Below are positions 1 to 8,472 of a stretch of DNA of 8,537 nt, piece by piece. The notes under the pieces were generated by a model. That model did not search any database, was not told the DNA's origin, and saw nothing but the letters and a program-made list of their open reading frames with translations. This DNA is from Deltaproteobacteria bacterium RBG_13_61_14 (GTDB lineage Bacteria > RBG-13-61-14), in assembly GCA_001797815.1 (NCBI GenBank), contig MGQK01000126.1, forward strand, positions 1,254-9,790, written 5' to 3'. Position 1 is the stretch's first letter. Every line of letters starts with the position of its first letter. A program made the position numbers and the translations under genes.

Positions 1-168
1 CAACTGGATCACGCCTTCCAGGAAATCCGGGGACCGGGGCAGGGGCGTGATCTTGAGCGGCCGGATGATCTGCTTGATCTTCATAATGTCCACCGCGTAG
101 GGCTGGCCCTCGACCTTGAAGCAGGCCACCTTCAGCTCCGGTCCCACCAGTTCGGAATTCACGTTCAT
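1..168 (-). CDS. cheW: CheW-like coupling protein, N-terminal part (cut by window edge)
   Basis: The first 56 codons of a second CheW-type adaptor; the rest lies beyond base 1. CheW proteins link the CheA kinase to chemoreceptors in the cytoplasmic signalling array. The visible residues fit the start of a CheW domain: KVACFKVEGQPYAVDI gives the first beta strands, KIKQIIRP matches the usual V-x-E-I-I segment, and ITPLPRSPDFLEGVIQL is the conserved 'T-x-x-P-x-x-P-x-x-(V/L)-x-G-V-(I/x)-(N/x)-L' stretch that runs into the R-G-x-x-(I/L)-P motif. The ATG at 168 is 11 bases after the TAG stop of the preceding CheW gene, with a modest GTGAG ribosome-binding sequence at 176-172, so it is the next gene of the same operon. 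Unlike its neighbour it has almost no N-terminal extension. A CheV-type CheW-REC fusion cannot be excluded because the C-terminus is not visible. Confidence 0.88.
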   Translation of the reverse strand, partial: MNVNSELVGPELKVACFKVEGQPYAVDIMKIKQIIRPLKITPLPRSPDFLEGVIQL

Positions 169-179
169 GGACTCACTCG

Positions 180-1202
180 CTAGTGCATGGTCGGCGGCGC
201 CAGCACTTTTTCCAGGTGGAGGAGGATCAGCATGCGGCCTTCGCTGCGGCCGATCCCCTCGAGATATTCCGCTTCCAGGCCGCCCAGGACGGGCGGAGGC
301 GGTTCGATGCCGGCCGCGGGAATCCGCACCACCTGCCGGACCCGGTCCACGATCAGGCCGATGGACTTGGCCCCTTCCCGCACCACGATGATCCGTGTCT
401 CCCGGGTATGCTCGCGCCGGGCCAGGCCCAGCCGCCGGCGCAAGTCGAAGACGGGGATGATCACGCCCCGCAGGGAGATGACACCCAGGACGTACTCCGG
501 CGCCCGCGGCACCGGGGTGATCTCCCGCATCTTGATGATCTGCTGCACCAGGGTGAGCCGGATCGCGTAGCTCTCCTGGGCGAGCTGGAAGCTTAAAAGC
601 TCCAGTTGCTCGCCGAGATCCTCTTGCGTCTCCTCGCCGAACTCCCGGCGGTAGAGGTCTTCACTGACCAGTTCCAGGAAATCATCCTTTTCCGCCCCCA
701 GGGTGTCCAGGTCAGGACCAAGGGCTGCCGGGGGCGGCTTGGGCGCAGCACTCTTTTTCGTCAGCTGCGGCGGAGCCGGCCTTGGCGCGGGTTTTTCCGG
801 CGGTCTCGGCGGCAGGACGCCCAGCTCGAATTCGGCATCCTCGTCGGGTGGAAGCGGCAAGTCCTCGCCGAAGGACATATCCACAAAGATGTCCTCCTCG
901 GAAGGCGGGCCTTTGGCCGGGGCCGGCGGAGGCGGCGCCACGGCCCTGGGCTTGGCCGGACCGGGGGCGCTGCTCGCCTTGGCTTTCTGGACCGGCGGCT
1001 TCGGAGTTTTAGCGGCCGGTTCCTGCTTCGGCTTGGGCTTGCGCTGGCTTTTGGCTGCTTCGGCCAGCCGGGCTTTTTTCGGCGGCGGGAGCGCCGGAGC
1101 CGGCTCCGCGGCTTGGGCCGGGGCCTCTTTCCCCTGCCGGCGGGCCTTTTCTTCCTGTTCGGCCTTCTCGCGCGCTTTCTTTCTGGCTTGAACGATGTCC
1201 AT
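180..1202 (-). CDS. cheW: CheW-domain protein with long Lys/Pro/Ala-rich N-terminal extension
   Basis: 340 residues, about twice a normal CheW (about 150-170). Residues 1-75 are strongly basic and rich in K, R, A, P and Q (starting MDIVQARKKAREKAEQ), 76-100 are Pro/Ala, 101-130 are acidic (SEEDIFVDMSFGEDLPLPPDE), and 131-165 are again Pro-rich. An acidic helix-like stretch (about 165-198) leads into a complete CheW domain at about 199-336. Its hallmarks are LLSFQLAQESYAI, VQQIIKMREITPVPRAPEYVLGVISLRG, the IPVFDLRRRLGL loop at 249-260 and IGLIVDRVRQVVRI. The domain should couple CheA to receptors; the job of the extension is unknown, but it looks disordered and could act as a tether or binding tail. 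The ATG at 1202 lies 3 bases after the TAA of the ATPase gene; I see no strong Shine-Dalgarno, so translational coupling is likely. Product call sure; function of the extension unassigned. Confidence 0.93.
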   Translation of the reverse strand: MDIVQARKKAREKAEQEEKARRQGKEAPAQAAEPAPALPPPKKARLAEAAKSQRKPKPKQEPAAKTPKPPVQKAKASSAPGPAKPRAVAPPPPAPAKGPPSEEDIFVDMSFGEDLPLPPDEDAEFELGVLPPRPPEKPAPRPAPPQLTKKSAAPKPPPAALGPDLDTLGAEKDDFLELVSEDLYRREFGEETQEDLGEQLELLSFQLAQESYAIRLTLVQQIIKMREITPVPRAPEYVLGVISLRGVIIPVFDLRRRLGLARREHTRETRIIVVREGAKSIGLIVDRVRQVVRIPAAGIEPPPPVLGGLEAEYLEGIGRSEGRMLILLHLEKVLAPPTMH

Positions 1203-1205
1203 GGT

Positions 1206-2108
1206 TTATTTGGCCCATGCCACGGCCGGGGCGGCCTCGTTCTTCTTTTTGCGCGGCCACTCCGGCATGGGTTCAGGGTTCTCCGGTTCGATCTCGTCAT
1301 CGGCCAGGGCCATGCCCAAATCTTGCGCCACGTTGGCGATGATCTCGGGCGTGATCACCTTGGCTTCCCGGCCGAAGCCTTCGAGCAAGGCGGCGCCGGC
1401 GAGGTTGTTGATCCGCCGGGGAATGCCCCGGCTCAGGCGCCAGATCAACGCCGTCGCCTCGCGGCTGAAGAGCCCTTGCTTGCCGCCGGCCTGTTCCAGG
1501 CGATAGCGGAGGTAAGCCTCGGTGCCGGCCCGGTCGAGCGCGCCCAGGTGATAGCGGAGCCCGATGCGCTGGCGGAAGGCCTCGTAGGCCGGGTGCTCCA
1601 GGCGCCTGAACAGGTCGGGCTGGCCGATCAGGATCATGGCCAGCAGGTTAACCTCGTCCAGTTGGAAGTTGGTGAGGAGACGGATTTCCTCGAAGGTCTC
1701 CCGGCCGGGGATGAGCTGGGCCTCGTCCAGGATGAGCACCGGGCAGATGCCCTTGTCATAGCAGTCGTAGAGCAGCCCGTTCACCTGGTCCACCAGGTCG
1801 GAGCGGAAATACTTGGGCGGCTCGGCGCCCAGCCGCACCGCCACCGTGCGCAGGAGCTGGTTGGGGGTGAGGCGGGGGTTGATGATCAGGGCCACCCGGT
1901 AGTTCTCGCCCAGCCGGTCAATCAGCGTCCGGGAAAGGGTGGTCTTGCCCGAGCCGATCTCGCCGGTGAGCAGCATCAGCTCGCGGTCCTCCACCGCCTG
2001 CTCCATCCGCGCCAGCGCCTCGGCGTAAGCCGGGCCCAGGTAGAGCATGCCCGGGTCCGGCGTCTTGACAAAGGGCTTGCGCTTCAGATGGTAGAATTCC
2101 CGGTACAT
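1206..2108 (-). CDS. ExeA/GspA-type AAA+ ATPase in a chemosensory operon
   Basis: 300 residues from the ATG at 2108. It opens with MYREFYHLKRKPFVKTPDPGMLYLG, the typical N-terminus of the ExeA/GspA and MSHA-associated ATPase family (F-x-L-x-x-x-P-F-x-x-(T/S)-P-D-P). Walker A is GEIGSGKTT (49-57), Walker B LILDEAQ (125-131), a sensor-1-like ILIGQPDL follows at about 159-166, QRI at about 180-182 fits the arginine-finger position, and RGIPRRINNL (about 227-236) is sensor 2. The C-terminal 30 residues are charged, with a KKK patch. Relatives bind ATP and work with type II secretion (ExeA with ExeB inserts the secretin) or pilus machinery; transposition ATPases such as TniB are more distant. There is no transmembrane segment or peptidoglycan-binding domain, both of which ExeA has. 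A GTG at 2120 overlapping the CheA stop (GTGA) would add four residues, but the ATG has GAGGA five bases upstream and fits the family start. Its place between cheA and cheW suggests a role in the pathway's output; this is inference. Confidence 0.93.
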   Translation of the reverse strand: MYREFYHLKRKPFVKTPDPGMLYLGPAYAEALARMEQAVEDRELMLLTGEIGSGKTTLSRTLIDRLGENYRVALIINPRLTPNQLLRTVAVRLGAEPPKYFRSDLVDQVNGLLYDCYDKGICPVLILDEAQLIPGRETFEEIRLLTNFQLDEVNLLAMILIGQPDLFRRLEHPAYEAFRQRIGLRYHLGALDRAGTEAYLRYRLEQAGGKQGLFSREATALIWRLSRGIPRRINNLAGAALLEGFGREAKVITPEIIANVAQDLGMALADDEIEPENPEPMPEWPRKKKNEAAPAVAWAK

Positions 2109-2113
2109 CGGGT

Positions 2114-2118
2114 TCCTC
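2114..2118 (-). promoter_or_regulatory. Shine-Dalgarno of the ExeA-type ATPase gene
   Basis: GAGGA on the minus strand, five bases before the ATG at 2108. The TGA stop of cheA (2119-2117) overlaps it, so ribosomes ending CheA translation sit on this site. It decides the ATG at 2108 over the GTG at 2120. Confidence 0.6.
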
Positions 2119-4216
2119 ACACTCCACTCGCCCCGGTGACCTCGGCGGCGCGAAAGAGGCTGCTCGCCGCCTCTTCCATCAAGTCCACCACGTCCAAGAC
2201 CAGGATGGTTTTTTGGCTGCCCAGTTCGGTGGCGCCGGCAATCCCCCGGATCCCCTTGAGCGCCTCGCCCACCGACTTGATCACGATATCCTGCCGGCCG
2301 CGCATCTTGTCCACCACCAGGCCCAGCCGCTTCTCCGCGATCCCCACCTTGACCACGAACAGTTCGTCGGTGGCATATTCCTCTTCCTCGGGCGTGCGCG
2401 GCCGCGGCCTCAGCCCGAAGAAGCGGGCCAGGCGCAGCAAGGGCAGGGTGCGCTCGCGCAGCTCGATCACTTCCCGGCCCTCGATGGTCTGGATCTCGTC
2501 CGGGCTGACTACCAGGCTTTCCTGCACCGCGTTGAGGGGGATGGCGAAGGTCTCGGTGCCGGCCTCGATGATCAGCGCCTGGATGATGGCCAGGGTGATG
2601 GGCAGGGTGATGCTGACGGTGGTGCCTTCGCCCGGCGAGCTCAAGAGGTCAATCGCCCCGCTCAGAGCCGAGATGTTGCTCTTGACCACGTCCAGGCCCA
2701 CGCCCCGTCCGGAGATTTCGCTCACTTTCTCCGCGGTGGAAAAGCCGGGCAGGAACAAAAGCTCGTTCAGCTCTTCCGGCTTCAGCTCGGCCGAGACATC
2801 CGCCAGGCCCATCTGCGCCGCCTTCTTCTTGATGCGGGCATAGTCCAGGCCGGCGCCGTCGTCCTGGATCTCGATCACCACGTGGTTGCCGCGCTGGAAA
2901 GCGCGGAGCCGGATCAGACCCCGCTCGGGCTTGCCCAACTGGATCCGCTCCGCCTTGATCTCGATCCCGTGGTCCAGGGAGTTGCGGATTACGTGCATGA
3001 GCGGGTCGGCCAGATCCTCGATGATCAACTTGTCCAACTCGGTCTGCCCGCCCTCGGTGACAAACTCCACCTCCTTGCCCAGCTCCCGGGAGAGCTTGCG
3101 GAGGTTGCGGGAGAGCTTGTCAAAGACCTGGCCGATCGGCACCATCCGCACTTCCAGCACGCCCTGCTGGAGCTCGGAAAGCTTGCGCTCGAGGGCGCGG
3201 TTGGCCTTGAACAGCTCGATCATCAGCTCGGAGAAGCCCGCCTCCGCCTTGAGCCGCTCGATGAGCTGGGCGATGATGTTTTTAAAGAGCACCAGCTCGC
3301 CCACGATGTTCATCAGGTTATCCAACTTGCCGATGTCCACCCGCACCGTCTGGCTGATGCTCCGCAGCGATCCTTCTAATCCGGTCTCCACCACGGGCTC
3401 GGCCGGTTCGGCCGGTTCGGCCGGCTCGACCTCGGGTTCCGCCTTGGCCTCCGGCGCGGCCGGGGCCGTCCCGGCCCGGAGCTCCTTCACTTCCACCAAG
3501 CGGTCGGCCAGGGCTTCCCGCACCTGCTCGCGGGGCCGGTCGGTGCCGAGCAAGAGGATGAAGGTGATCTGCTCGTCGGAAGAGGCGTCCGCGCTGGGCA
3601 GGGTGGTGATGATCTCGCCCAGTTTTTTCGCCGCCTGCTGCAACTGTCCCAGATCCTCGTCAAAGGTGCTCAGGCTGAAGCTGGCCCGGAGCTGATACAA
3701 GCCCACGCCTTCCCGGAGGTTCTCGCTCAGGCGGTGCTCCTCGTACTCGGTGAGCACCGAGAGGATCTCGGGGCCGATCCCGACCCGGCGGAAGAGGTCG
3801 GCCTCCGACTCCGCCCCCTGCACGTCCACGTGCTCCAGGCGGTGGAGCAGGTCATCCAGTCTGGGAATTTCACCGGTCTGGCCCTCGCCCTTGCGCACCA
3901 CGATCTGGCGGAGCATTTCCACGGCCTCGAAGAGGAGGTCGAGCACGCGGAGGCCGAGCTGGATCTTGCCCATACGCAGCCGGTCGAGCAGGGTCTCCAG
4001 GGTGTGGCTGAGCCGGGTCATCTCGGCAAAGCCGAACAGCCCGGAGATGCCCTTGAGCGAGTGGGCGGCGCGGAAGATGTTGTTGATCAGCGCGGGATCG
4101 GTCTTGCCCTTGCCGTGCCGGACGCTCTGGTCCAGGGCCAAGAGGTCCCGGTTGAGCGAATCAATGATCTCCTCGGACTCGCCCAGGAACTCGCGAATGT
4201 TGATTTCCGCCGCCAT
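2117..4216 (-). CDS. cheA: Chemotaxis histidine kinase CheA
   Basis: A full-length CheA of 699 residues from ATG 4216, or 706 from a GTG at 4237 that overlaps the cheY stop as GTGA. It autophosphorylates on the HPt histidine and passes phosphate to CheY-type receivers. Numbering from the GTG: HPt (P1) about 13-115 with the phosphorylated His59 in FRAAHSLKG; a P2-like domain about 165-255 (GLYQLRASFSLSTFDEDL to FILLLGTDRP); a Glu/Pro/Ala linker with an EPA triplet repeat about 265-285; dimerisation P3 about 295-360; and the HATPase domain with N box HVIRNSLDHG (415-424), G1 DDGAGLD (459-465), F box LFLPGFS (494-500) and G2 GRGVGLDVVK (510-519). A CheW-like P5 regulatory domain covers about 555-690. 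All catalytic motifs are intact. I prefer the ATG because MAAEINIREFLGESEEIIDSL fits a normal HPt start, but neither start has an ideally placed ribosome-binding site (GGGAG abuts the GTG; AGGGAG is 12 bases from the ATG). No receiver domain is fused to it. Confidence 0.97.
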   Translation of the reverse strand: MAAEINIREFLGESEEIIDSLNRDLLALDQSVRHGKGKTDPALINNIFRAAHSLKGISGLFGFAEMTRLSHTLETLLDRLRMGKIQLGLRVLDLLFEAVEMLRQIVVRKGEGQTGEIPRLDDLLHRLEHVDVQGAESEADLFRRVGIGPEILSVLTEYEEHRLSENLREGVGLYQLRASFSLSTFDEDLGQLQQAAKKLGEIITTLPSADASSDEQITFILLLGTDRPREQVREALADRLVEVKELRAGTAPAAPEAKAEPEVEPAEPAEPAEPVVETGLEGSLRSISQTVRVDIGKLDNLMNIVGELVLFKNIIAQLIERLKAEAGFSELMIELFKANRALERKLSELQQGVLEVRMVPIGQVFDKLSRNLRKLSRELGKEVEFVTEGGQTELDKLIIEDLADPLMHVIRNSLDHGIEIKAERIQLGKPERGLIRLRAFQRGNHVVIEIQDDGAGLDYARIKKKAAQMGLADVSAELKPEELNELLFLPGFSTAEKVSEISGRGVGLDVVKSNISALSGAIDLLSSPGEGTTVSITLPITLAIIQALIIEAGTETFAIPLNAVQESLVVSPDEIQTIEGREVIELRERTLPLLRLARFFGLRPRPRTPEEEEYATDELFVVKVGIAEKRLGLVVDKMRGRQDIVIKSVGEALKGIRGIAGATELGSQKTILVLDVVDLMEEAASSLFRAAEVTGASGV
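3399..3425 (-). repeat. Three tandem 9-bp units in the CheA linker
   Basis: Plus-strand TCGGCCGGT, TCGGCCGGT and TCGGCCGGC stand head to tail and encode repeated Glu-Pro-Ala in the disordered linker between the P2-like and dimerisation domains of CheA. Gain or loss of a unit would stay in frame and change linker length only. Confidence 0.75.
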
Positions 4217-4233
4217 GCTCGCGCGCTGCTCCC

Positions 4234-4608
4234 TCACTCTCCCAGATACTTTTTCACCAGGTCTTGCAACTCCGCCGGGTTGACCGGCTTGACCAGGTAT
4301 GCGTCGGCTCCCAGGGCCAGGCCTTTCTCGCGGTCGCGCTCGGCTCCCTCGGTGGTGACCACAATCAGGGGAATGCTGGAATACTGGAGGTTGTTCTTCA
4401 CGAAATTGATCAGCTCCAGCCCGTTGATATCGGGCATGTTGATGTCGGTGATGATCAGGCTGTACTTGCGCCGGGGCAAGAGTTTCAAGGCCTCGAACCC
4501 GCTGGAGGCCTCGATAATCTCGAAGTCGTCGATCTCCTCCAGGGTCGCCACCAGGAAGGCGCGGGTGGTCGCCGAATCTTCCGCCAGCAGAATGCAGTGC
4601 TGCGACAT
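4234..4608 (-). CDS. cheY: Single-domain response regulator, CheY-like
   Basis: 124 residues, exactly one receiver domain and nothing else, as in CheY. The acid pair is E10-D11 (ILLAEDSATTR, with E in the place of the first Asp, a common substitution), the phosphorylated aspartate is D55 in ITDINMPDING, the switch Thr is T85 (VVTTEGAE), the aromatic switch is Y104, and the conserved lysine is K107 (YLVKPVNP). CheA, encoded immediately downstream, is the natural phosphodonor. Without an output domain it must act by binding a partner: a flagellar switch, a pilus motor component, or the PATAN regulator encoded just upstream. Alternatively it could be a phosphate sink. The ATG at 4608 lies 5 bases after the upstream stop and has a good ribosome-binding site. 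Confidence 0.95.
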   Translation of the reverse strand: MSQHCILLAEDSATTRAFLVATLEEIDDFEIIEASSGFEALKLLPRRKYSLIITDINMPDINGLELINFVKNNLQYSSIPLIVVTTEGAERDREKGLALGADAYLVKPVNPAELQDLVKKYLGE

Positions 4609-4613
4609 CGCGG

Positions 4614-6578
4614 TTACCTCGCCTTGCTCCTCAGCGCCGGCTCCGTCTCGCGCAGTTCCTGGATCCGGCGCTCCAAGAGCGCCTTTTCCATGGCCAGGCC
4701 GGCCTGGGCCAGGAAGATCTCCAGGCTTTCGGTATCCCCGATTTCCTTGCTCTCGGGCAAGTTGTCCCCGTAGAGGATGGCCGCGATGCGGCCGCCGGCG
4801 ATGATGGGGGCGACAAACACCTCAGCCGGCTCCAGGCCACCCAGCCGCTCGATCAGGTAGTCGTTCCACTTGGTGTGGCGGAGCCGTTTTTTCAGCACCA
4901 TCCGTTTTTGCACGGTTTCCTGGAAGATGCTGGGCTCGCTCAAGGGGATGCGCATGCGCCGCACGTGCTTTTCCGGATCCACGCCGTTCAAGTCAATCCC
5001 AAACTGGCCCAGCCCGGCGATCTGGTTGCGGGCGACCAGGAAGATCACGGCCCGGTTCATCATTTCCGCGGCGAAGCGGAGCACGAGCAGGGTGATCTGG
5101 CCGCTGGAGGAGGGGTCATTGAGCTCCGAGATCATGGCCTTGAGCATGGCCAGCCCCCGGCTGGGCACCACCTCCAGAGGACCGCTCCCCGGCGTAAAGT
5201 CTTCATCCCCCATCTCCCGGCGCAACTCTTCGCCCAGATTGATCAGGCCCTCACCCTCCCGCGGCCGCGGGCGCGCCGGCGCCGGAAGGGAGTCCAGGGC
5301 GTTTTCCAGCACCGCCACAAAGTTCTGCAGCTCCGGGGTGGAAAAGTCTTCTTCCAATTGCGAGCTTTTCGGCTTGAAGAAGAAGAACCGGGTGCCCAGG
5401 CTCTTCGCCTTGGTCTGGGCCGTGGGGTTCTCGTAGTCGGTCATCAGGATGCACGGCACCTCCGGCCGCTCGGCACGCACCCGCTCAATCAGGTCCAGGC
5501 CGCCCAGGTAGTTGGCCTCGTCCCAGCCCGGCATCAGCAAATCCGCGACCAGGACCGGCGGTTCTTTTTCGGCGGAGAGGGAGCTCAGCCGGTGCATGAC
5601 TTGGGAAACCCGGGCAAAGCTCTCCACCCGGAACCCCTTGGGCTTAAGGTAAAAGGCCAGGGATTTCGCCATCAAGGGATCGTCGTCCACCACCAGGACC
5701 AGCCGACCAGTGCCGGACGCCGAGACCGGCGGCAAGGGTTGCGGTTCTGCCGGAGGCGGAGCCGGGAGTTCTTTCTGCGCCGCAGGGGCTTCGGCTGAAA
5801 ATTCCTCCCCAGCCGGCGCGGGGTGAGGATTTTTCTCGGCGCCGGCGGCAATCTCCGGAGCCGGCGGAGGGGGCGCCTCGGACTGAGCTGGGGCCGGGGG
5901 CGAGGGGGTCTCAACTTTTTCGTGAGCTTCCACCACGGCGACAAAGTCGGCGACCGAGGAAAAATCATCCTCGGCCAGGGAACTGCCTGGGCCGGCCGCG
6001 GGCGCTTTAGCCGGCAGGGGTTCCGGCGGTCGGGTCCGTGGCGGCCCCACGGGCGCGGCCGCGGTCGAGCGCCGGCGCTCGTCCTGGAGTCGGGTGCCTT
6101 CCATGGCCAGGTATTGCGGGCTCAGGCCCACCTCCAGGACAAAGGCCTGAAGCTGGGGCGGAAAGTTCTTGATTTCCGGCTCGATTTCCATCAGCTCAAA
6201 GTTGAAGTTGCCTTCGGGCCAGGCGAAAAAGCTGAAGACGGTTTCTTCAATCTGCTCCTTGACGATTTGATCAATCAGGGTATGGGCAATATGACCCTGT
6301 CGCATCAGGATTTGGCGAAAATCGGTTTTGCCCTTTTGGACCGCGGCCAGCATGCCTTCCCAGTCCGCGGCGGAGATCGCGCCCTGCTCGACCAAGGCCA
6401 GGCCCAGGTTGGGCTTGACCTGGTTGCCGAGCGCCGCCACCACCTGGCCGTCCCGGAAAATGATCTTGCCCCGCATGTCCCCCCAATTCAGGTTGAGGAC
6501 CCCTGATTTGCGGGAAAGGCTGACGATCTGGAGGATGTCCCCCAGACCGAGATCTTCCAGACTGCCCACCAAGCTCAT
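4614..6578 (-). CDS. PATAN (DUF4388)-receiver-GAF-like response regulator
   Basis: 654 residues, first gene of the chemosensory operon. Residues 1-165 are a PATAN/DUF4388 domain: MSLVGSLEDLGLGDILQIVSLSRKSGVLNL, then GKIIFRDGQVVAA and the helical part LGLALVEQGAIS to EETVFSFFAWPEGNFNFEL. A Pro/Ala/Glu-rich linker (about 170-290) follows. A receiver domain covers about 292-430, with acidic cluster D298-D300, phosphorylated D346 (LVADLLMPG), T380 and K402 (FFFFKPK). The C-terminal part, about 465-640, looks like a divergent GAF domain (ITLLVLRFAAEMMNRAVIFLVARNQI to VFVAPIIAGGRIAAILYGDN) ending in a charged helix. There is no DNA-binding or enzymatic output, so it probably works by protein contacts. 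In cyanobacteria PATAN-REC proteins (PatA, PixG) accompany che-type operons that control type IV pili; here the order matches PATAN-REC, with an extra GAF-like tail. The ATG at 6578 has only a weak purine-rich site (AGCGAG) upstream. Domain calls 1 and 2 are sure, the GAF call moderate. Confidence 0.93.
   Translation of the reverse strand: MSLVGSLEDLGLGDILQIVSLSRKSGVLNLNWGDMRGKIIFRDGQVVAALGNQVKPNLGLALVEQGAISAADWEGMLAAVQKGKTDFRQILMRQGHIAHTLIDQIVKEQIEETVFSFFAWPEGNFNFELMEIEPEIKNFPPQLQAFVLEVGLSPQYLAMEGTRLQDERRRSTAAAPVGPPRTRPPEPLPAKAPAAGPGSSLAEDDFSSVADFVAVVEAHEKVETPSPPAPAQSEAPPPPAPEIAAGAEKNPHPAPAGEEFSAEAPAAQKELPAPPPAEPQPLPPVSASGTGRLVLVVDDDPLMAKSLAFYLKPKGFRVESFARVSQVMHRLSSLSAEKEPPVLVADLLMPGWDEANYLGGLDLIERVRAERPEVPCILMTDYENPTAQTKAKSLGTRFFFFKPKSSQLEEDFSTPELQNFVAVLENALDSLPAPARPRPREGEGLINLGEELRREMGDEDFTPGSGPLEVVPSRGLAMLKAMISELNDPSSSGQITLLVLRFAAEMMNRAVIFLVARNQIAGLGQFGIDLNGVDPEKHVRRMRIPLSEPSIFQETVQKRMVLKKRLRHTKWNDYLIERLGGLEPAEVFVAPIIAGGRIAAILYGDNLPESKEIGDTESLEIFLAQAGLAMEKALLERRIQELRETEPALRSKAR
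4616..4620 (-). promoter_or_regulatory. Shine-Dalgarno of cheY
   Basis: GAGGT on the minus strand, seven bases before the ATG at 4608. Its last base is the first T of the TAA stop codon (4616-4614) of the upstream PATAN regulator gene, which points to coupled translation. Confidence 0.6.
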
Positions 6579-6702: not shown

Positions 6703-6836
6703 GGGTGTGCGACAAATTTGGTAGTTGGATGGCCCTGCCTTGAGTCAAAATCTTGCGCCACGGCGGTAGGGGCGACCGGCCGGCCGCCCCTACGCCCCGC
6801 ACGGTCATTGTCCGTCACCAAATTTGTCGCACACCC
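6703..6836. mobile_element. MITE-like non-coding element, 134 bp, with TIRs and flanking direct repeat
   Basis: The ends are perfect 20-bp inverted repeats: 6703-6722 (GGGTGTGCGACAAATTTGGT) and its exact complement at 6817-6836. Immediately outside, the 9-bp sequence TTGGGAGAG occurs as a direct repeat at 6694-6702 and 6837-6845; the following G makes it 10 bp if the boundary is shifted by one. This is the pattern of a transposed element with target-site duplication. No coding frame of useful length lies inside, so it must rely on a transposase encoded elsewhere, as MITEs do. A 9-10 bp duplication would suit some IS4- or IS1-like transposases, but I do not recognise the terminal sequence and assign no family. 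It lies in the gap upstream of the chemosensory operon, with its left duplication 7 bp from the candidate -35 box. Confidence 0.72.
6762..6796. repeat. GC-rich hairpin inside the MITE-like element
   Basis: GTAGGGGCG (6766-6774) pairs perfectly with CGCCCCTAC (6785-6793), the centre CCGG/CCGG (6776-6783) pairs too, with one A-C mismatch, and outer GGC/GCC pairs extend it past a one-base bulge. The resulting palindrome is roughly 35 nt. It is not centred on the terminal repeats, so it is a separate structure carried within the element. Similar GTAGGGGCG...CGCCCCTAC palindromes are, from memory, scattered in many GC-rich genomes. Confidence 0.7.
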
Positions 6837-7176: not shown

Positions 7177-8307
7177 TCAGCGGGCCAGGGCCTCCGCCCG
7201 CTTTTTAAATGCCTTCAGGTCGTCCTGAACATTCCCCCTGCCTTCCTGGGCGGCGATGAGTTTGGAGCGGTCGTCAGTCAACGCCTCAATTTTGTATCCG
7301 CGAAAGCCGCCCGCAACCCCGAGACCGGCGGTAAGAGTATTATCCAGATCTTTGCAAAACATCTCCATGATCGAATGATCAAAAAACAGTTCATGGTTGC
7401 TAGTTTTCATATTCCCCATTTTTTGAATCACCACGTGGTCCGAAGTGCGTTCCAGAATATTTACGGACAGGCAACCGGGCATGAATTCGCAGTAGTTTTC
7501 CACATCCGTGATCGCTTCCCAGGCCAGACTGGCCGGGGCCTCAACCGCGGTCGAAAAATAAGCGACATTTTTATCCCCGCTTTTGCCTTTGACCGAATAT
7601 ACCCCCCCCCTTTCCAGGGCGCTGGATTCCGCGGCAGAATCCACATTCACGCTCTGAAAGATTTTTTCAAACCGCCGGATTTTAGCCGCGGTCTCAGCGG
7701 AAATCGCTTCCACGGAACGGGTGGGCCGATAAGAGCCGGAACTCTGCGGGGCGCCGGAGGGAGCTGAAGCCTGGGCGGCTTTCCGGGCATAAATTCCGGT
7801 TTCGCCGAAGTGCTCCCGGATTTTGGCGCTGGCCAGGGCCGCGAGTTGATCCAACTGATCCTCGGTGCAGGTGCATTGCTCCTTGCCGCTCATCTCCACG
7901 GTGCCGGTCTGAATATCCACCAGGTTCACGGTCATAATGTAGCGGTTTCCGAGCTTGCTCAATTCGCCGTTTACCATCTTTTGGGCCGCCACCAGCTTTC
8001 CGATTTCCACCTGGCACATGGTCGAATCGCACAGGTCGGAGATGTTCATGGCCTGCCGCTTCATCACCTCTTGGAGCATGTCCTCCTTGATCACCAGCAG
8101 CTTGGGCGATTGGGTCAGCTCATAATTGACGAGCGAGGTTATGGTCGCGGCCACCGACTTGTCCACCGTCCCGACGGCTTTGAACGGATACACGGCCACG
8201 CTGGTCTTTTCCGCAGCCGGCGCCGCGGCGCCCAGGATCCCGACCAGGATCAGGATCAACCCGCTGAACCCGCACAGAAGGGACGACTGACTCTTGAAGG
8301 TCGGCAT
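7177..8307 (-). CDS. Exported protein: CsgG-like domain fused to SRPBCC/START-like domain
   Basis: 376 residues from the ATG at 8307, chosen because GAGGAG lies 8 bases upstream and the protein then begins with a clean signal peptide; an ATG at 8349 would add 14 residues and bury it. The signal peptide spans about 1-32 (K5, hydrophobic core GLILILVGILG, likely cleavage after PAA), so the protein should reach the periplasm or beyond. Residues about 35-165 resemble the CsgG/TolB-N-like family: SVAVYPFKAVG, ITSLVNYELTQSPKLLVI, then LCDSTMCQVEIGKLVAAQKMVNGELSKLG with paired cysteines and TVNLVDIQTGTV. A Ser/Pro linker follows (about 178-200). Residues about 247-370 look like an SRPBCC/COQ10-START domain (VAYFSTAVEAPASLAWEAITDVENYCEFMPGC), a fold that holds hydrophobic ligands. 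The pairing suggests an envelope lipid- or ligand-handling role, which is inference. It is separated from the chemosensory operon by about 600 bases and is probably an independent unit. A run of nine G lies in codons 233-236. Confidence 0.88.
   Translation of the reverse strand: MPTFKSQSSLLCGFSGLILILVGILGAAAPAAEKTSVAVYPFKAVGTVDKSVAATITSLVNYELTQSPKLLVIKEDMLQEVMKRQAMNISDLCDSTMCQVEIGKLVAAQKMVNGELSKLGNRYIMTVNLVDIQTGTVEMSGKEQCTCTEDQLDQLAALASAKIREHFGETGIYARKAAQASAPSGAPQSSGSYRPTRSVEAISAETAAKIRRFEKIFQSVNVDSAAESSALERGGVYSVKGKSGDKNVAYFSTAVEAPASLAWEAITDVENYCEFMPGCLSVNILERTSDHVVIQKMGNMKTSNHELFFDHSIMEMFCKDLDNTLTAGLGVAGGFRGYKIEALTDDRSKLIAAQEGRGNVQDDLKAFKKRAEALAR
7602..7610 (-). repeat. G9 homopolymer within the exported-protein gene
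   Basis: Nine consecutive C on the plus strand, read as nine G in the coding strand (AGG GGG GGG G), covering Arg233-Gly234-Gly235-Val236 in the linker before the SRPBCC domain. It is the longest single-base run I notice in the window. Loss of one G would shift into a frame that stops at 7461, removing the SRPBCC domain while leaving the CsgG-like half. Confidence 0.85.
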
Positions 8308-8315
8308 TTTGGCTT

Positions 8316-8321
8316 CTCCTC
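8316..8321 (-). promoter_or_regulatory. Shine-Dalgarno of the exported-protein gene
   Basis: GAGGAG on the minus strand, eight bases before the ATG at 8307. It is the strongest ribosome-binding site in the window and fixes that start over the ATG at 8349. Confidence 0.7.
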
Positions 8322-8472
8322 GAATGAAAATTTCAGTTTCTTTTACCATAAGTCCCTTCCGGATTCAAGTTGGGTAAAGAAAAATCTGCGCACTCGGAAG
8401 CCGCGGCCCTCGGGCGGTTCCGCGCAAAAAATCTTATGATTAGAGATGCTGCTCTTTAGAACTTTTTGGAGT

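Follow-up and report, generated by a model that had tools for sequence, protein, structure and literature searches.

To our knowledge, the chemosensory arrays of textbook chemotaxis assemble without a dedicated AAA+ ATPase. Some che operons encode ATPases that position chemosensory arrays (ParC/ParP, PpfA), but these belong to the deviant Walker ATPases of the ParA/MinD type and are not related to the che-linked AAA+ protein analysed here. The latter shares an AAA_22 domain and a MYxxFY..PDP N-terminus with ExeA/GspA, which works with ExeB/GspB in type II secretion. It differs from ExeA/GspA in that it lacks the transmembrane segment, the periplasmic region and the PF01471 C-terminus (present in L139, a protein used for comparison), falls in a separate clade, and adjoins cheW instead of gspB. 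The ATPase domain of ExeA is required for the ExeA-ExeB complex (PMC4098917).

Two other families resemble the che-linked ATPase. It covers positions 1-266 of the 269 of TIGR03015 (XrtA/PEP-CTERM ATPase), its best named family, with 219.8 bits. This is below the curated cut-off of 324.5, and neither an exosortase nor a tyrosine kinase lies beside it. The closest solved folds of its AAA+ part are MuB and TnsC, to which a partner protein docks through a terminal peptide on a flexible tether; TnsC filaments, for example, are bound by the 15-residue terminal hook of TnsB (PMC9371665). However, these are DNA-binding transposition proteins of approximately 18% identity, and no DNA role is indicated for the che-linked ATPase.

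A close described system is the Esn network of Geobacter sulfurreducens (GSU2220-GSU2222), where genes for CheA, an ATPase and CheW are consecutive and all three show an electrode biofilm phenotype. There, the protein appears under the bare name 'ATPase' and received no further study. Tran et al. (2008) reported a che cluster of the beta group that has preliminary matrix phenotypes and, like the loci of the Geobacter order in our survey, contains no mcp genes (PMC2577667). From gene content and order, we infer that this cluster is the ATPase operon. In the literature searched, we found no earlier study of a role of this ATPase in chemosensory systems.

A soluble ExeA-like ATPase between cheA and cheW

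We analysed a window of 8,537 nucleotides (contig C126, positions 1254-9790) of the 4.7 Mb draft genome of Deltaproteobacteria bacterium RBG_13_61_14 (G000). It encodes the first genes of a che operon, with these features:

1..168, minus strand: CheW1 (second CheW), start only, running beyond the window into C126 (locus L009, 933-1421)
180..1202, minus strand: CheW2, a CheW of 340 aa with a long N-terminal extension (Pfam)
201..602, minus strand: CheW domain of CheW2, PF01584, residues 201-334 (Pfam)
603..1172, minus strand: variable linker of CheW2, of low confidence (disordered) (AlphaFold2 and alignment)
1173..1202, minus strand: N-terminal motif of CheW2, MDIVQARKKA, consensus MD[IL]xxIRKKA (motif alignment)
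1206..2108, minus strand: ExeA-like soluble AAA+ ATPase of 300 aa (Pfam, motifs, homologues)
1941..1964, minus strand: Walker A of the ATPase, GEIGSGKT, residue 49 (motif reading)
2109..2119, minus strand: ribosome-binding region of the ATPase, overlapping the cheA stop codon (junction sequence)
2117..4237, minus strand: CheA histidine kinase with Hpt, dimerisation, HATPase and CheW domains (Pfam)
4234..4608, minus strand: CheY-like single-domain response regulator (Pfam)
4614..6578, minus strand: PATAN (DUF4388) and receiver-domain protein, encoded at the head of the operon (Pfam; gene order conserved)

The ATPase ORF has 300 codons from its ATG, and the longest ORF opens at a GTG further upstream (2120). 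The protein starts with the ExeA-family N-terminus (MYREFYHLKRKPFVKTPDP) and matches Pfam AAA_22 (E 1.7e-22). The glycines and the lysine of Walker A are invariant across 13 che-linked homologues. Walker B (VLILDEA, residue 124), sensor 1 (LIGQP, residue 160), the arginine finger (QRI, residue 180) and sensor 2 (GIPRRIN, residue 228) follow. The Pfam search returned no peptidoglycan-binding domain (PF01471) in the ATPase, and the peak 19-residue hydropathy is only 1.26, hence no membrane segment. A sequence search of solved structures gave no relative, and a single-sequence scan of genome contigs gave no match. When compared over length by fold, the AAA+ part is closest to the MuB filament (8xvb, TMt 0.74) and to TnsC (7m99, 0.76), then to Orc/Cdc6. 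At the cheA/ATPase junction (GAGTGTGAGGAACCCGATG), a GAGGA-type ribosome site sits on the TGA of cheA, and the junction with cheW is TAA-ACC-ATG, a gap of three bases. A sequence-only reading of the window had described a soluble ExeA-like AAA+ protein without peptidoglycan-binding domain, whose Shine-Dalgarno overlaps the cheA stop and whose gene ends three bases before cheW; the motifs, Pfam, hydropathy and junctions confirm this description. The window displays two features of the proposed che-linked clade: the ATPase between cheA and cheW, and a CheW2 tail (MDIVQARKKA).

Beyond the window, the contig goes on with a zinc-ribbon-REC protein. The full conserved operon encodes PATAN-REC, CheY, CheA, the ATPase, CheW2, an optional MCP or REC protein, CheW1, zinc-ribbon-REC, a HEAT-repeat protein, CheR, CheB, GAF and CheY. 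The HEAT-repeat protein and CheR are fused in G002 (L017, 4753-6768) and encoded by separate adjacent genes in L105, L052 and L055. Genome G045 has two copies of the operon (L053, L054), each with the ATPase. The region upstream of the PATAN gene has a perfect 20-bp inverted repeat (GGGTGTGCGACAAATTTGGT) at 6703-6722 and 6817-6836, with a spacing of 94 bases and an internal 14-bp palindrome, which resembles a small element of the MITE type. Further upstream, a gene on the same strand as the che operon (7177-8349) encodes a protein with a signal-like N-terminus, a polyketide-cyclase/SRPBCC domain and a weak TolB/LpoB-like resemblance.

Distribution and phylogeny of the ATPase

We searched 192 genomes, sampled over bacterial groups, with an ATPase profile. 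Scores above 250 bits were reached by 13 copies, from 12 genomes, and all 13 lie between cheA and cheW. None of the 18 lower-scoring loci examined has a cheA adjoining the ATPase; one (L043) has cheW only. A scan of named genomes yielded 80 ATPase loci. The ATPase has cheA directly upstream in 72 of them, and the remaining eight are one locus at a contig end and seven more distant members (≤45% identity). In two genomes of the same order as the source, the gene order is kept and the ATPases are 64-67% identical. The owners belong to Desulfuromonadota, Nitrospirota, Acidobacteriota and Myxococcota, and those named include Citrifermentans, Geomonas, Oryzomonas, Trichlorobacter, Malonomonas and Anaeromyxobacter. 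Of the 141 genomes in the order of Geobacter and Citrifermentans, 125 have exactly one copy, and a single copy above 350 bits is present in 47 of 198 genomes of another phylum (that of G125). The check proposed in the sequence-only reading, a search for this gene order across genomes, shows that it recurs over phyla. Two Acidobacteriota loci (L086, L089) keep cheA and the ATPase, followed by an RNase III-like gene with no CheW2 alongside.

In an IQ-TREE phylogeny of 65 ATPases, the 39 che-linked ones form one clade (support 99/88) with a single non-che member (L129). We also identified five ATPase-less operons that belong to this class (G149, G093, G058, G092 and G177). They are scattered in the CheA tree, where well-supported branches force at least three separate events. 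For example, L176, without the ATPase, is sister to L130, which has it (100/100). The five genomes encode only distant paralogues of the ATPase (at most 285 bits), whereas six named owners searched alongside score at least 311. The simplest reading of these trees is that the ATPase would be an old accessory part that was repeatedly lost. It is inessential to the pathway, since five lineages manage without it. In one ATPase-less operon (L173, 7343-8308), a receiver-domain protein occupies the slot between cheA and cheW.

Relatives with the operon but no ATPase, or an ATPase found mainly in unrelated contexts, had been named beforehand as signs of an incidental insertion. The first pattern exists, in these five relatives; the second does not, as the subfamily is hardly ever found in unrelated contexts. 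The five relatives are what speaks for an unrelated ExeA-type gene simply carried along in the operon. This explanation is rejected on the synteny, the single clade and the one-copy conservation in the Geobacter order, and is further contradicted by the conservation of the CheW2 tail and by the Tn-Seq phenotype (see below), so that we consider it extremely improbable.

A conserved N-terminal tail in the adjacent CheW

The sequence-only reading missed a feature of CheW2 that is the best lead on mechanism. CheW2 proteins start with M-[DN]-[IL]-x-x-[IL]-R-K-K-A, followed by a variable linker of 44-220 residues and the CheW domain. The motif, anchored at the start, is present in 78 of 79 ATPase-adjacent CheWs, and the 79th has a near-fit (MDILKARAKAK). 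An 80th adjacent CheW, from Anaeromyxobacter oryzae, was read by hand and carries the motif (MDFLEIRKKAKERAA), giving 79 out of 80. The motif is absent from the other CheWs of those loci (0/61) and from the ATPase-less operons (0/5). The sisters L130 and L176 still resemble each other in the CheW2 linker (PLDDFFYRPDEEAPELP and PLDEFFWREDERAPALP), and the tail is found only in the ATPase-bearing L130. A Fisher test of this pattern does not account for relatedness, and we count the co-absence of tail and ATPase as at least three independent cases.

Could the tail be conserved for reasons unrelated to its protein sequence? Per-position entropy in CheW2 is about 1.5 bits or less, then exceeds 3 bits past residue 11. 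The arginine of the tail never varies and is encoded by each of its six codons, and the CheW2 and ATPase genes do not overlap in 56 of 78 loci, where the motif is just as strong. Hence, selection acts on the tail as protein, and conservation through overlap with the ATPase gene is ruled out.

These patterns make recruitment of the ATPase by the CheW2 tail the best-supported mechanism, and we regard it as probable. The two Acidobacteriota loci without a neighbouring CheW2 count against it. We also made a docking trial with AlphaFold2, in which the ATPase and CheW2, which share a frame in the window, were modelled as one chain with the stop read as a glycine linker, using an alignment of 19 homologous read-through pairs. 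The tail is predicted as a helix, with pLDDT of 81/89 in CheW2 alone versus 53/79 with the ATPase covalently in front. The predicted motif helix gained no confidence over the CheW2-alone control, and the fusion model gave no support to docking.

Alternatively, the tail could be a helix binding the membrane or some other target, linked to the ATPase by a common function and without direct contact. It is basic and amphipathic, and is predicted as a confident helix when the ATPase is not present. Yet it is missing in all five ATPase-less operons, including in the sister pair where the linker was kept, and the other CheWs of the same operons never carry it. We consider this explanation unlikely.

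Co-occurrence with pilus motors and an electrode phenotype

FliG is encoded by one of 12 sampled ATPase owners and is missing from the source genome, whereas PilT-family ATPases are present in all 12, with several copies in the source genome. The usual output is therefore not the flagellar motor, and flagellar output as a general role is ruled out by the 11 owners lacking FliG. The link to pili is one of co-occurrence only among these 12 owners. An association of the ATPase with the loss of flagella is unsupported, as FliG is present in 3 of 5 ATPase-less versus 4 of 18 ATPase-bearing genomes.

In a Tn-Seq experiment with G. sulfurreducens on a poised electrode, the 'ATPase' GSU2221 had a log2 value of -2.1, next to -2.4 for its neighbour CheW (GSU2220) and -2.8 for CheA (GSU2222), on a list of approximately 39 genes that also includes pil genes (PMC5585712). 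The authors argued that polar effects were relieved in their library; they made scarless deletions of cheA and cheW, and not of the ATPase gene, and named the network Esn (PMC5585712). Our match of GSU2221 to the che-linked ATPase is based on gene position and annotation rather than on sequence. The phenotype of GSU2221, the same as that of its cheA and cheW, supports the membership in the signalling system that the sequence-only reading had put forward, as do the synteny over phyla and the single clade bar one member. Taken together, the conserved linkage, the single clade, the motif that tracks the ATPase and the Geobacter mutant phenotype equal to that of cheA and cheW point to a dedicated ATPase. 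We are highly confident that it is a real, dedicated component of a non-flagellar chemosensory class, and it looks like an unrecognised working part of the chemosensory system.

The same data bear on an output-side role, in which CheW2 would hold the ATPase at the array and its target would be a type IV pilus or an envelope machine, such that the array site would determine where pili or exopolysaccharide machines form, as ExeA acts on the secretin. Relatives of the ATPase serve secretin assembly, the distribution of PilT (12/12) and FliG (1/12) fits, GSU2221 and pil genes are found together among the electrode phenotypes (PMC5585712), and cyanobacterial PATAN-REC proteins bind PilB/PilC and act on the pilus motor (PMC12288463). 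However, the parts of ExeA that span the membrane and bind peptidoglycan are missing from the ATPase, and the operon has no pilus gene, its conserved neighbour being a CheW. Such a role is rather improbable in our view, though less so than the membrane-binding helix.

Proposed mechanism

The best explanation, which we hold with evenly balanced confidence, is that of an AAA+ protein recruited by a CheW tail that assembles or positions the array in a non-flagellar, type-IV-pilus/biofilm-type class. The ATPase would be a dedicated part of the Esn-type chemosensory class of Geobacter. The CheW2 tail (MD[IL]xxIRKKA), on its flexible tether, would dock on the ATPase and recruit it. The ATPase may then oligomerise under the control of ATP, in the manner of MuB and TnsC, and the oligomer could assemble, cluster or position the array of CheA, CheW and receptors, or tie this array to an envelope target. 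The tentative part of this scheme, drawn by analogy, is that the ATPase would assemble or position arrays and not act on kinase activity or on pili; we give it somewhat less than even credence.

The same fold class suggests a different activity. The tails of MuA and TnsB trigger the disassembly of MuB and TnsC, and by the same tail logic the ATPase might be a remodelling factor that disassembles arrays or resets CheA/CheW stoichiometry, as an ATP-dependent form of adaptation. That the tail is carried by a CheW and not by a receptor would fit. Against this, the operon already encodes CheR and CheB for adaptation, and loss of the ATPase has a phenotype of the same sign as loss of CheA or CheW, not the opposite. 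Remodelling is the least probable of the three alternative roles given to the tail or the ATPase, and we prefer recruitment to the array for its assembly or positioning.

Tails beside other ExeA-like ATPases

Other neighbours of ExeA-like ATPases also start with short motifs. GspB-like proteins, including those beside ExeA/GspA, have an N-terminal motif before a linker (e.g. LSIIHDALKRAE, MSSILDALKKLE), ParA/MinD-like kinases start with MSKIEEALKKA, and HD-domain proteins with MVKLIDLIKQ or MRLSDLIKQ. A comparable motif is present in 11 of 27 genes adjoining ExeA-like ATPases versus 5 of 76 others, an optimistic contrast since the motif was written after the examples. A partner-tail rule for other ExeA-like clades is, on these sequences, a lead.

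Further loci show related arrangements. Another ATPase clade (L033, L047, L048, L138) adjoins HD_5-domain (HD-GYP-like) proteins with N-termini of the MVRITDILK/MRLSDLIKQ type. The source genome (L010, G000:C17, 1922-6081) and L019 (G001:C608, 8953-13162) each encode a second ExeA-like ATPase, located after a large TPR protein, and these TPR proteins end in KKISYL/KKISYV. In the ATPase-CheW pairs without cheA (L043/L060), the CheW starts with MAKKKISYAKLL, which together with the TPR ends may represent a shared terminal tail.

Implications

A broader generalisation would be that the ExeA-like AAA+ protein is an all-purpose, exchangeable machine that a client recruits with a short terminal tail on a flexible tether, and which in chemosensory systems polymerises on the array or organises it. 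We regard this as possible, if doubtful. If true, CheW, GspB-like proteins, ParA/MinD-like kinases and HD-domain proteins would be clients of one machine, and the assembly of chemosensory arrays would be controlled by ATP. The client tail and its AAA+ partner make a testable rule, which may unify the ExeA-type ATPases of secretion, exopolysaccharide and signalling operons. An AAA+ protein between cheA and cheW, matched by a CheW tail and conserved in four or more phyla, would mean that a large class of non-flagellar chemosensory systems has an additional, ATP-driven step. This class includes the chemosensory system that Geobacter needs for electrode colonisation, in a tractable organism for which scarless cheA and cheW deletions are on hand (PMC5585712).
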